DNA of 44,181 bases from positions 1-44,181 of the forward strand of contig MFRL01000016.1 of assembly GCA_001784565.1 (NCBI GenBank), given 5' to 3'. Origin of the DNA: Candidatus Melainabacteria bacterium GWF2_37_15. Its GTDB lineage: Bacteria > Cyanobacteriota > Vampirovibrionia > Gastranaerophilales > UBA9971. A program made the position numbers and the translations under genes. This document shows, piece after piece, positions 14,873-19,158 of this stretch (position 1 is the stretch's first letter; every line of letters begins with the position of its first letter). The notes under the pieces were generated by a model. The model saw only the letters and a list, made by a program, of their open reading frames with translations. It made no database searches and was not told where the DNA came from.

Positions 14873-15940
14873 ATGAGTGACATACTTCGTAAGATAAATT
14901 CCTTATTGAAAGAAGTAGAGCAAGAATTTTTAGATTTTAAACAGGAACATTATAAAAATAATGCTGATTTTGTACTTGATGTTTTATGTATGGCAAATGC
15001 CGAACATATTGGGGATAGATATATAATTTTTGGAATTGAAAATAATACAAAAAAAATAATTGGAGTTGAAAAAGATGATAATAGAAAAAATCTTCAAAAT
15101 TATATAAATAGTTTAAGGTCATCATTTTTTAATAATTTACCTACAATTATGCTAGATACAGTTGAACTTGATAAACATCAAATTGATTTATTAACAATAA
15201 AAAATAAAAAAAACAGACCTTATTTTTTACTGAAAGATAAACGAGAAGGGAAAAAAACAGTTCGAGCTGGAGTTATATATACCAGAGATGGAGATAATAA
15301 CACGCCTATTGATAACACAGCAGAGCCATTAAAAATTTATAATATGTGGAGAGAGCATTTTAAATTAGATTTAACACCACATGAACGATTTAAAATTTAT
15401 CTTCAAGAACACGATAAATGGTTAAAACAGCCAACTTCCCTTGATAAGTCAAAATACTATTTTGAACAGTTTCCTGAATTTACAATTGAACGTTATACTG
15501 AAGAAGATTGTCAGGATCATGAAGCTTCTTGTTGGTATGGATATAACTTTCAAAAACCTGCTATTTTATACAGTGTGAATTTATCTTATTTTAATACTGT
15601 ATTGTGTGAATATTCATTTGTATCTCTTGACAAAGAAAGATGCTTTTTCCCTTCCTTCATTTCTTCAAGATCTTATGTTAGTGAGCTTTTCCCAGACAAG
15701 AGAAGAGAATTAGCTGAAGCTAGATATTTCTTTGAAAAAGAATTTTACTTTACGCTTAAAGATAATTTATCTTATGAATTATATAAATTATTTAAAAGTA
15801 TGTATAACTATCAGACAATAGAGGATTTTGCTTCGGATCATTGGGCAAAAATGCCGATAAAAGTTTTTAATAATTTAGAAGAGGTAAAACTTGAAATAAA
15901 AAAAATGGGGCTTGGAAAAATTGGTATTCTAGCAAAGTAA
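14873..15940 (+). CDS. AlbA_2/Schlafen-like putative DNA-binding protein
   Basis: Residues 10-150 resemble the AlbA_2 (Schlafen-type, divergent ATPase-like) domain: EFLDFKQEHY, DVLCMANAEHIGDRYIIFGIEN, YINSLRSSFF and AGVIYTRDGDNN. The 200-residue C-terminal part, rich in Tyr, Phe and Lys, was not recognised. Such proteins occur as regulators and in mobile or defence-linked genes. A GAGAGGAG ribosome site precedes the ATG. It interrupts the lpxC-fabZ neighbourhood, is flanked by dispersed repeats and is more AT-rich than the lpx genes, which suggests later acquisition. Confidence 0.65.
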   Translation: MSDILRKINSLLKEVEQEFLDFKQEHYKNNADFVLDVLCMANAEHIGDRYIIFGIENNTKKIIGVEKDDNRKNLQNYINSLRSSFFNNLPTIMLDTVELDKHQIDLLTIKNKKNRPYFLLKDKREGKKTVRAGVIYTRDGDNNTPIDNTAEPLKIYNMWREHFKLDLTPHERFKIYLQEHDKWLKQPTSLDKSKYYFEQFPEFTIERYTEEDCQDHEASCWYGYNFQKPAILYSVNLSYFNTVLCEYSFVSLDKERCFFPSFISSRSYVSELFPDKRRELAEARYFFEKEFYFTLKDNLSYELYKLFKSMYNYQTIEDFASDHWAKMPIKVFNNLEEVKLEIKKMGLGKIGILAK

Positions 15941-16262: not shown

Positions 16263-16709
16263 ATGACAGATACAGCAGCACCTTTAAAAATGGATATTAT
16301 GGAAATAATGAAGTTAATTCCTCATAGATATCCGTTTTTACTCGTTGATAGAATTACAGAATGCGTTCCGGGTAAATACGTCAAAGGTTTTAAAAATATC
16401 ACCATGAACGAAGCGCTATTCCAGGGGCATTTCCCGGGCAACCCGATATTTCCCGGAGTGTTAATGGTGGAAGCGCTTGCTCAGATCAGCGCAGGTATGG
16501 TTATGACAATGCCGCAGTATGCCGGAAAACTGGCTTTATTTGCAGGGATTGACGGTGTAAGGTTTAAAAAAGTTGTAAGGCCTGGCGATAAGCTGGAATT
16601 TCATTCAGAAATAATTAAACTTAAAGGGCCTATCGCAAAAACTAAATGCACAGCTACAGTTGACGGAGAACTGGCAGTCGAAGCCGAGTTAATGTGCGCT
16701 ATTCAGTAA
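16263..16709 (+). CDS. fabZ: 3-hydroxyacyl-ACP dehydratase
   Basis: FabZ dehydrates 3-hydroxyacyl-ACP in fatty acid elongation and competes with lipid A synthesis for 3-hydroxyacyl-ACP. The hotdog-fold signature is complete: IPHRYPFLLVDRI, ALFQGHFPGNPIFPGVLMVEALAQ (catalytic His and Glu), then FAGIDGVRFKKVVRPGDKL. Length is 148 aa. AAGGAG stands about 10 nt before the ATG. lpxA follows after 10 bp. It is the first gene after the repeat and AlbA_2 insertion, so it probably has its own promoter in 16209-16250. Confidence 0.96.
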   Translation: MTDTAAPLKMDIMEIMKLIPHRYPFLLVDRITECVPGKYVKGFKNITMNEALFQGHFPGNPIFPGVLMVEALAQISAGMVMTMPQYAGKLALFAGIDGVRFKKVVRPGDKLEFHSEIIKLKGPIAKTKCTATVDGELAVEAELMCAIQ

Positions 16710-16719
16710 AGGATATTTT

Positions 16720-17490
16720 ATGATACAGGAATCAATACATGAGACAGTAAAAATACACCCTTATGCGGTTATTGGGCCGGAGGTAAAAATTGGGGCAAAC
16801 TGTGAAATATTTCCCCACACATACCTCGAACACTGCGAAATAGGCGAAAATTGCGTAATTTCCCCGAGTGCGGTAATTGGTACGCCTCCGCAGGACTTGT
16901 CATATAAAAATGAATCAACAAAGGTAATTATAGGCAATAACTGTAAGATTCGGGAAAACGTTACTATAAATAGAGCTTCAGGAGAGGGAAATACAACCGA
17001 GCTGGGAAATGACTGTTTCATAATGACTGGCGCGCATATTGCCCACAATTGCAAAGTCGGCAATAACGTCATAATCGCAAATAATGCCCTGTTGGCAGGA
17101 CATATACAGGTTGGGGATTATGTATTTATTGGCGGGGCTGTGGTAATGCACCAGTTCGTCAGGGTTGGGGAAATGACCATAGTTGGCGGCTTTACCGGCA
17201 CAAGACTGGATCTTCCTCCTTATGCAAAGATTGATGGCAGGCCGGGTCGTGTAGTCGGGATTAACACAGTAGGATTAAAGAGAAGAGGGCTGTCTCAAGA
17301 TGAGAGAACCCTCATTAAAAAAGCCTTTAACCTTTTATGGTTTTCTGAGTTAAATACCCAGCAGGCTGTGGAAAGGATAAGAAAGGAACTGCCGTCCAGC
17401 AGATATATTGATCATCTGATTGAATTTATGAGCACAAGTAAAAGAGGCATTACTAAGTTATCAGGTAAGGGTGAAGACGAGAGCGAGTAG
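16720..17490 (+). CDS. lpxA: UDP-N-acetylglucosamine O-acyltransferase
   Basis: LpxA performs the first acylation of lipid A synthesis. It is a left-handed beta-helix protein with hexapeptide repeats (IGANCEIFPHTYLE and others), the catalytic His in TGAHIAHNCKVGNN, and the diagnostic FVRVGEMTIVGG, RPGRVVGINTVGLKRRG block before a C-terminal helical domain. Length is 256 aa, normal. It lies 10 bp after fabZ. The stop faces the convergent annexin-like gene with 1 bp between. Confidence 0.95.
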   Translation: MIQESIHETVKIHPYAVIGPEVKIGANCEIFPHTYLEHCEIGENCVISPSAVIGTPPQDLSYKNESTKVIIGNNCKIRENVTINRASGEGNTTELGNDCFIMTGAHIAHNCKVGNNVIIANNALLAGHIQVGDYVFIGGAVVMHQFVRVGEMTIVGGFTGTRLDLPPYAKIDGRPGRVVGINTVGLKRRGLSQDERTLIKKAFNLLWFSELNTQQAVERIRKELPSSRYIDHLIEFMSTSKRGITKLSGKGEDESE

Positions 17491-17491
17491 T

Positions 17492-18340
17492 CTAGTTATA
17501 CATCATCCCGAACATTCCGGTATTTGTATCATTTGTTCTTTGTCTTGCATGATCCAGGACGTCTAAAAGACGGCTTTCCTCGCCAAACGAATATTCAGAC
17601 TTTATATAATTATCAAGTGATTCACCATATATTTTTTTAAAGGCTTTGGCTGTATCTACAATGTATCGGTTATATTCGCCTTCTTTCATATGTTTTTTTG
17701 AGTCAACAAGCATGGAATCAATAACTTTTTCTTCAGTGCCCAAACCACTTCCGGCTTGCTTTAAGAGCATGGCTGACAGTTCAGGGTTGTGGGCTTTAAT
17801 GGCAGCTTCTTTTAGCTGATTGAGTTCTTGAGTTTCCTTGTTGAATCCAAGAAATGAGAATAAGCCTCTACTTTGATCAATTAGCAATTCAGGGTCTTTT
17901 AAGTTGTCAAAACTAACAGGGTTATTAGGATTTTTTAACCCGCCATATTCGGCGCAATATACCTGGTAAAGCGCCATGGTTTTGTTTTCTCCAGATATTG
18001 TGTCTTGATTGCCAAGGATCCTCGATACTCTCTCAGATTCAACAAAAGGTAATCGTTTTCCTAAAATAGGTAATCTCCACTCATGTAGGCTTTCAGCAAG
18101 AGGTTTTAGGTTTTCTGCATCCTGGGCAGCTATATCCCTGGATTCATATTGTTTGTAATTACCGGATGCGCTGGATAATATGCTATCCCAGTTACGCATT
18201 GTGAAATCTGCGCTAAAAACATTAAAATAAGGGTCAATCTCAGCTATTTCCGCCATGTTTGCGGGATATTCCTGAGCATTTCCCAGACCAGTATCAAATC
18301 TTACAGCTTCTGTTCCAGCCATTTCAATCTTCCTTCCCAA
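17492..18340 (-). CDS. Unknown protein with an annexin-like repeat
   Basis: The first 180 residues of this 282-aa protein were not recognised. The C-terminal part (about residues 195-270) resembles one annexin repeat: a helix with SAMLLKQAG, the loop SGLGTEEKVIDSML (annexins have K-G-x-G-T-D-E), then AFKKIYGESLDNYIKSEYSF and EESRLLDVLDHA, close to the annexin pattern Y-K-x-x-Y-G-x-D-L-x-x-x-L-K-S-E-L-S-G. An 8-residue insertion separates helices B and C. The acidic residue that completes a type II calcium site would be the Glu of KSEY. No signal peptide is seen. The domain call is from pattern only; the function is unknown. Confidence 0.55.
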   Translation of the reverse strand: MGRKIEMAGTEAVRFDTGLGNAQEYPANMAEIAEIDPYFNVFSADFTMRNWDSILSSASGNYKQYESRDIAAQDAENLKPLAESLHEWRLPILGKRLPFVESERVSRILGNQDTISGENKTMALYQVYCAEYGGLKNPNNPVSFDNLKDPELLIDQSRGLFSFLGFNKETQELNQLKEAAIKAHNPELSAMLLKQAGSGLGTEEKVIDSMLVDSKKHMKEGEYNRYIVDTAKAFKKIYGESLDNYIKSEYSFGEESRLLDVLDHARQRTNDTNTGMFGMMYN

Positions 18341-18428
18341 TATTTAAATTTTAAACAAACCACTATAATGTACTTACTTAACTTCCTTCCAATAATATAA
18401 AAACTTTTTATTTTGAGAAATTGCTTTT

Positions 18429-18457
18429 TTGAAACATTTCTTTACAAAAATTATGAT
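18429..18457 (+). promoter_or_regulatory. Promoter of the MNT-HEPN operon
   Basis: TTGAAA (18429-18434), a 17-nt spacer and TATGAT (18452-18457) match the sigma-70 pattern well. The transcript would begin near 18464, only about 6 nt before the ATG at 18470, which has no Shine-Dalgarno sequence. Confidence 0.65.
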
Positions 18458-18469
18458 AGAATAATTTTT

Positions 18470-18790
18470 ATGAAAGAAAAAATCCAAGAAATAATAAAAG
18501 AATTTAAAAATAAAATTGTCCCATTATATAAAACCCAATTAACAAATATAATATTATTTGGTTCTCAGGCAAGGGGCGATGCTGAAGATGGGTCAGATAT
18601 AGATATAATAATTATTTTAAAAGGAAAAATTAATCCTGCGGAAGAAATTAATAAATGTTCGGATATAATTTCCGAATTATCATTAAAATTTGATACAGTT
18701 ATTTCCTGTATTTTTGCTCAGGAGGACAAATTTGTTAATAAAAAAACCCCTCTTTTTCTTAATATAAAAAAAGAGGGCATAGTATTATGA
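18470..18790 (+). CDS. MNT-type nucleotidyltransferase (antitoxin of a HEPN pair)
   Basis: This 106-aa minimal nucleotidyltransferase has the pol-beta signature LFGSQARGDAEDGSDIDIII (GSxxRG and DxD). In MNT-HEPN pairs it acts as antitoxin, in characterised cases by nucleotidylating the HEPN partner. I chose ATG 18470 (MKEKIQEIIKEF); the frame is open to 18413, but the promoter overlaps that part. The stop overlaps the HEPN start (ATGA). This operon heads the rfbA-kinase-nadB-nadC group. Confidence 0.85.
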   Translation: MKEKIQEIIKEFKNKIVPLYKTQLTNIILFGSQARGDAEDGSDIDIIIILKGKINPAEEINKCSDIISELSLKFDTVISCIFAQEDKFVNKKTPLFLNIKKEGIVL

Positions 18791-19158
18791 TCCCTGAACA
18801 GTGGGAATTAATTACAAAAGCAAAAGATAGCCTTAAAGCGGCCAAGTTATTACTTAAAGATAATTTATATGATTTTGCGATTTCAAGGGCATATTATTCA
18901 ATGTTTTATGTTTCAGAAGCATTTTTACTCGGTGAAAATTTAACTTTTTCAAGTCATTCTGCTGTAATTTCAAATATTGGAAGTAAATTTGTCAAAACAG
19001 GTAAAATTCCTCGTATTTATCATAAAAATTTAACAGATGCTTTTAATAAAAGAAGTTCAGGCGATTATGACACAGATACAGGCTTTACTGCTAATGATGC
19101 TTTAGAACAAATCAAAAAAGCCGAAGAGTTTATAAACTTTGCAGAAGAGGTTTTATAA
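18787..19158 (+). CDS. HEPN domain protein (UPF0332-like, putative toxin)
   Basis: This 123-aa helical protein has the UPF0332/HEPN signature [16 protein letters not shown] near residues 36-51 and [20 protein letters not shown] near the end. HEPN toxins are usually RNases. The common R-x4-6-H catalytic motif is not evident, so activity may differ. It overlaps the MNT gene by 4 bp and is followed by rfbA after 1 bp, so polar coupling of rfbA to this module is likely. Confidence 0.82.

Follow-up and report, generated by a model that had tools for sequence, protein, structure and literature searches.

The window, the whole 44,181-nucleotide stretch of DNA analyzed here, encodes on its minus strand a protein that we regard as a real, divergent bacterial annexin. 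Both fold and homology point to this, and we put the probability at roughly 0.95. Annexins are textbook eukaryotic membrane proteins, known in animals as calcium-dependent membrane binders. Here, the annexin fold forms a conserved core gene in a family of non-photosynthetic cyanobacteria, and four-repeat annexins also occur in the same class. Bacterial annexins as such are already known.

The gene and its start are laid out as follows:

17492..18322, minus strand: annexin-like gene, 276 aa from the ATG at 18322 (from the ORF and the upstream GGGAAGGA)
17492-18340, minus strand: longer ORF with a TTG start at 18340 (from the ORF listing)
18331..18338, minus strand: probable ribosome-binding site GGGAAGGA (direct sequence reading)

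The ATG at 18322 is preferred as the start because GGGAAGGA sits eight bases upstream of it; as the sequence reads, initiation at the TTG is unlikely. The peptides quoted in the initial annotation were all found in the minus-strand ORF 17492-18340. The protein carries the following features:

17852..18127, minus strand: possible second, decayed annexin repeat, residues ~66-157 (weak profile-profile score)
17537..17800, minus strand: annexin repeat (repeat 2), residues ~175-262 (profile, PDB and model matches)
17735..17746, minus strand: AB loop GLGT, residues 193-196, candidate type II Ca2+ site (alignment and ligand logic from the literature)
17666..17701, minus strand: extension between helices B and C, about residues 208-219 (phmmer alignments)
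17594..17596, minus strand: Glu243 of KSEYS, acidic DE-loop residue (phmmer alignment to annexin A8)

The C-terminal part had been read as an annexin repeat from the letters alone. This reading is borne out by the Pfam E-value, the PDB matches, the predicted fold and a bridging ortholog. In the ORF read from the TTG, residues 190-251 match PF00191 with an E-value of 4.7e-4 and 20.6 bits. By E-value the profile check comes out in favor of an annexin, but for the protein as given the score stays below the curated cut-off of 25 bits. In a six-frame PF00191 search, two pieces in frame sum to 25.7 bits; this same loose search (E up to 10) gave some match in 7/14 control genomes, none of them over the cut-off. 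With phmmer, 20 PDB sequences scored E <= 10, and the top 14 of them are annexins (best E 3.2e-4). With the family profile (A1, nine sequences), annexin XII came first at E 0.013. The nearest solved structures to the window protein or its family include annexins A3, A4, A8, and XII. An HMM built from distant annexins of the same class (10 repeats, from L024, L025, and L037 only) recovers the window ORF with 32.9 bits and E 1e-9 in the small set of ORFs from the collected loci.

Profile-profile comparison gave the same answer. Repeat 2 of 11 family members was compared with a profile of 40 annexin repeats of the class, from which the window family and the ortholog L018 had been left out; the score was 58.6, with a probability of 96.9%. 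When the window protein and L018 were also dropped from the query, the score was 34.9 (84%). The maximum of 300 fresh column-shuffle trials was 21.7. Among 150 earlier shuffles, one scored 134.5 on 8 columns at the gappy end and did so repeatably, which we read as a program artefact; the next best scored 17.8.

A further link is L018, a 271-codon frame from a genome of another family (G012, family f4). It matches the family profile at E 6.8e-7 and aligns with residues 71-259 of the window protein, across both halves, with 28% identity and a pairwise E of 8e-8. L018 also matches PF00191 above the cut-off (E 1.3e-8, 35.2 bits), carries GAGTDE, and has annexin VI as its best PDB match (E 2.6e-21). 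By its sequence, L018 is an unmistakable annexin. It bridges the window protein to the textbook annexins, and homology is therefore secure. Were an unrelated helical protein to resemble an annexin repeat by chance, this would fit the sub-threshold Pfam score, and it would fit the lack of any Pfam annexin match in other members of the gene's own family of genomes, f1 (0/8 homologs tested, and none in L063 of genome G002). Against this stand the L018 bridge, the profile-profile score of 34.9 that persists without the window protein and L018 (shuffle maximum 21.7 of 300), and the convergence of two predicted models, those of the window protein and of the ortholog L054, on annexins. These largely refute a chance match, which we consider very improbable.

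The structure of the window protein was predicted by AlphaFold2 without templates from a 4-sequence alignment. The mean pLDDT is 49.5; it is below 50 in the L054 model as well, so only the repeat is trustworthy in both. Residues 180-268 form five helices, and the ten-residue blocks from 201 to 260 have pLDDT values of 69-85. The predicted helices A-E of repeat 2 comprise residues 180-190, 197-211, 214-232, 236-243, and 248-268. VIA-align placed annexin IV first with a Z of 10.2 and an rmsd of 1.9 Å over 77 residues, although Z values under about 13 can be common among helical bundles. Annexins, giardins and annexin-A2 fusion entries occupy ranks 1-44, and the best match of a different fold has Z 7.0. 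The PDZ entries among these ranks we take to be annexin-A2 fusion crystals, as their titles partly state. Foldseek gave no match to the model at E <= 0.001; its best was annexin III at 0.17, with a probability of 1.00. The five-helix annexin topology is thus present in the predicted model, and the fold comparison proposed in the initial annotation came out positive by prediction. The protein shares with the PF00191 repeat the GxGT motif in the AB loop, the acidic residue in the DE loop and, in the predicted model, the five helices A-E.

Two details of the earlier reading concern the extent of the repeat. The interval 17492-17760 does cover GLGT, but it is slightly short, the repeat running from about 17800 to 17537. 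Helix A, from about residue 180, precedes the GLGT loop and for this reason the repeat reaches beyond that interval. The proposed 8-residue insertion, which corresponds to the extension between helices B and C, is real: counted from the first glycine of GLGT, Glu243 lies 50 residues away, against a GxGT-to-acid distance of about 40 residues in annexins (PMC3588008).

The protein had also been described as having a single repeat after 180 unrecognized N-terminal residues. One clear repeat is indeed what we find, but the N-terminal half may hold a second, decayed one at residues ~66-157. This plausible assignment comes from a weak score of 22.9 (29%) against the annexin profile, in the expected helix register, with a shuffle maximum of 16.7 of 150; the score depends on L018 and is 16.3 without it. 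In the AlphaFold2 model residues 66-157 are mostly helical in an annexin-like order, at low confidence, and one giardin row of the VIA-align list spans model residues 78-261. Repeat 1 and repeat 2 of the family do not match each other by profile-profile comparison (0.3% probability). The four-repeat core is absent in the window protein, with one clear repeat and a second that is doubtful. Compared with eukaryotic annexins, the family differs in having one clear repeat instead of four and a longer BC region.

The GxGT motif and the downstream acidic residue, both noted initially, are kept in the window protein as GLGT and Glu243. Glu243 aligns with an annexin Ca2+ ligand, the acid of KSE in annexin A8. 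The ligand logic of type II Ca2+ sites is that laid out in PMC3588008 and PMC7093510. As judged by eye, GxG together with D/E at the Glu243 position is complete in 4/11 members (the window protein, L005, L011, and L018), so Ca2+ binding is not a conserved trait of the family. Orthologs of the family differ from eukaryotic annexins in lacking conserved Ca2+ ligands, and most have a hydrophobic insert in the DE loop.

This Gly-rich insert is 54-69 residues long and lies between helices D and E in 7/11 members (L005-L011). These proteins reach 1.68-2.26 in their highest 19-residue Kyte-Doolittle mean, as against 1.08 in L004, 0.77 in L018, and 0.37 in the window protein, which has no DE-loop hairpin. 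Short loops stand at the insert position in L004 (16 residues, containing FGFGIFG) and, judged by eye, in L063 (containing GGLRIFGWNVFG). We modeled the insert in L054, which is the same protein as L006 (on the L006 contig); L006 has no Pfam annexin match. The insert, residues 284-334, has a pLDDT under 50 and is followed by a helix. VIA-align ranks 1-11 of the L054 model are all annexins or annexin-fusion entries with Z up to 10.1, and the next fold is at Z 6.0. Over model residues 210-349 the alignment takes in 73 consecutive annexin residues, which places the insert between D and E and leaves the repeat intact. Annexins contact membranes with their convex face, through the AB and DE loops (PMC3588008, PMC7093510). 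The insert would therefore emerge at the membrane-contact face. We looked for a clean swap of the Ca2+ site for the hairpin and saw none, as L005 and L011 have both.

Three further loci (L019, L020, and L022) matched the family profile at E 1.3e-5 to 8.5e-4, chiefly over helices C-D and the hydrophobic segment, and were not counted as relatives; they are absent from the annexin HMM list at E <= 1. Each has a Gly-rich hydrophobic segment after a stretch aligning with helices C-D, which could be composition only.

How the protein works can be proposed from these features. The window protein is presumably cytoplasmic, with no signal peptide recognizable by eye. Its repeat would turn the convex face with the AB and DE loops towards the acidic inner side of the cell membrane and dock there, Ca2+ forming the bridge between GLGT, Glu243, and lipid phosphate. 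Where sister genera have a hydrophobic hairpin from the same DE loop, this would reinforce or replace the Ca2+ docking. Such docking may well be the way in which the window protein acts. A point against it is that one repeat would be expected to hold a membrane less tightly than a core of four. Alternatively, the annexin fold may have lost Ca2+ and membrane binding and now serve as a soluble helical scaffold for protein-protein contact alone. The incomplete ligands in most members would suit a scaffold, as would the 9-row family alignment, in which most invariant positions fall outside the AB and DE loops. Type II sites have also been lost in about one third of eukaryotic annexin repeats (PMC3588008). 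However, GLGT and Glu243 are retained in the window protein, and in 7/11 members the membrane-facing loop carries a Gly-rich, strongly hydrophobic stretch, which would be hard to explain in a soluble scaffold. We consider a scaffold unlikely.

The hairpin orthologs invite comparison with annexin B12, whose D-E region turns into a transmembrane helix at acid pH (PMC3588008). By analogy, they might likewise insert into membranes through the D-E region. In annexin B12 an ordinary DE hairpin refolds conditionally, on acidification, whereas the extra hydrophobic segment of the present orthologs is encoded in the gene. It is possible, though we hold this only tentatively, that the hairpin replaced the Ca2+-bridged contact genus by genus, with the window protein and its hairpin sisters as the two ends of the transition and the core gene lying beside lipid-A synthesis. 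Orthologs with and without the hairpin offer a natural test of the relation between Ca2+-bridged docking and direct insertion.

No relative turned up when related loci were sought with only the window protein as query. Among 60 related genomes, a protein search detected the gene in nine (own genome included), all in family f1, and a profile search added the f1 genome G002 (L063, E 2.4e-11), giving 10/10 sampled f1 genomes. Two further candidates (L064 and L065, profile E about 1e-3) had no annexin motif by eye and were rejected. The gene faces the lipid-A genes of the window:

16720..17490, plus strand: lpxA (Pfam Acetyltransf_11 and Hexapep), convergent with the annexin gene
16263..16709, plus strand: fabZ (Pfam FabA-like), upstream of lpxA

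The stops of lpxA and the annexin gene lie one base apart, tail-to-tail, and lpxA is preceded in the window by lpxD, lpxC, and fabZ. The convergent pair is present in 8/9 assessable genomes (own, G001-G004, G007, G008, and G009), with lpxA in the relatives recognized by eye from its N-terminal sequence. The annexin gene is elsewhere in G006, and the contig ends in G005, which could not be assessed. On the side away from lpxA, the neighboring genes differ among genomes. Convergent genes share no promoter, so this arrangement is only a hint of a functional link between the annexin gene and lipid A. The lipid-A gene run is broken between lpxC and fabZ by a Schlafen AlbA_2 protein (14873-15940, plus strand). 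Adjoining the annexin gene is a gene pair for a nucleotidyltransferase and a HEPN protein (18413-19158, plus strand), which we take to resemble an MNT/HEPN toxin-antitoxin system.

The genomic context bears on another explanation, in which the protein is a leaderless secreted effector whose repeat docks on a foreign membrane and whose hairpin, where present, inserts. Toxin-domain fusions are found among bacterial annexins elsewhere (Kodavali et al. 2014, PMC3894181), and the Gly-rich hydrophobic segment of the orthologs would suit insertion. One gene was found per genome, however, and the gene is present in all ten f1 genomes and lies next to lpxA in eight of the nine assessable ones, which is the pattern of a core gene. 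There is also no Pfam toxin domain in the window protein, eight homologs, L018 or L063. An effector therefore seems improbable to us, and docking on the cell's own membrane is the reading we retain.

The claim that bacterial examples are few did not hold in Vampirovibrionia/Melainabacteria. PF00191 matches at E <= 0.001 in 63/382 genomes of the class and exceeds the curated cut-off in 45/382, with 0/14 in the controls. A draw from the phylum, class members included, gave matches in 16/292 genomes; all but one, G428 (contamination 9%), belong to the class. Full-text literature searches combining annexin with the class and member names found no report, in collections that mostly do not cover subscription papers. 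In its available text, the survey by Kodavali et al. 2014 (PMC3894181) lists 34 bacterial annexin proteins from 17 species of Bacteroidetes, Gemmatimonadetes, Proteobacteria, and Actinobacteria, none from this class, and describes the bacterial roots of annexins as disputed. The proteins of that survey are, like ours, divergent and patchy, with a varying repeat number and some predicted transmembrane parts. The same text does not mention a DE-loop hairpin, which the present orthologs have.

Annexins are scattered through the class, four-repeat forms among them. By the annexin HMM, L024 and L025 each contain four clear repeats, and L025 matches PF00191 at 5.8e-56 and annexin VI in the PDB at 7.7e-38. 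Both L024 (whole locus) and L025 (451-2511, plus strand) carry GWGTDE/GLGTDE loops; their source organisms have small genomes and belong to family f2 of the same order. Near the N-terminus of L025 there is, in addition, a weak EF-hand match (E 0.016). In large-genome family f8, annexin repeats occur in frames of ~2200-2900 residues (L028, L029, L030, L040, L041, L046, and others). L021 (679-2043, plus strand) has two annexin-like repeats after a weak EF-hand match (E 0.0024, under cut-off), and is a possible fusion of a calcium sensor with an annexin.
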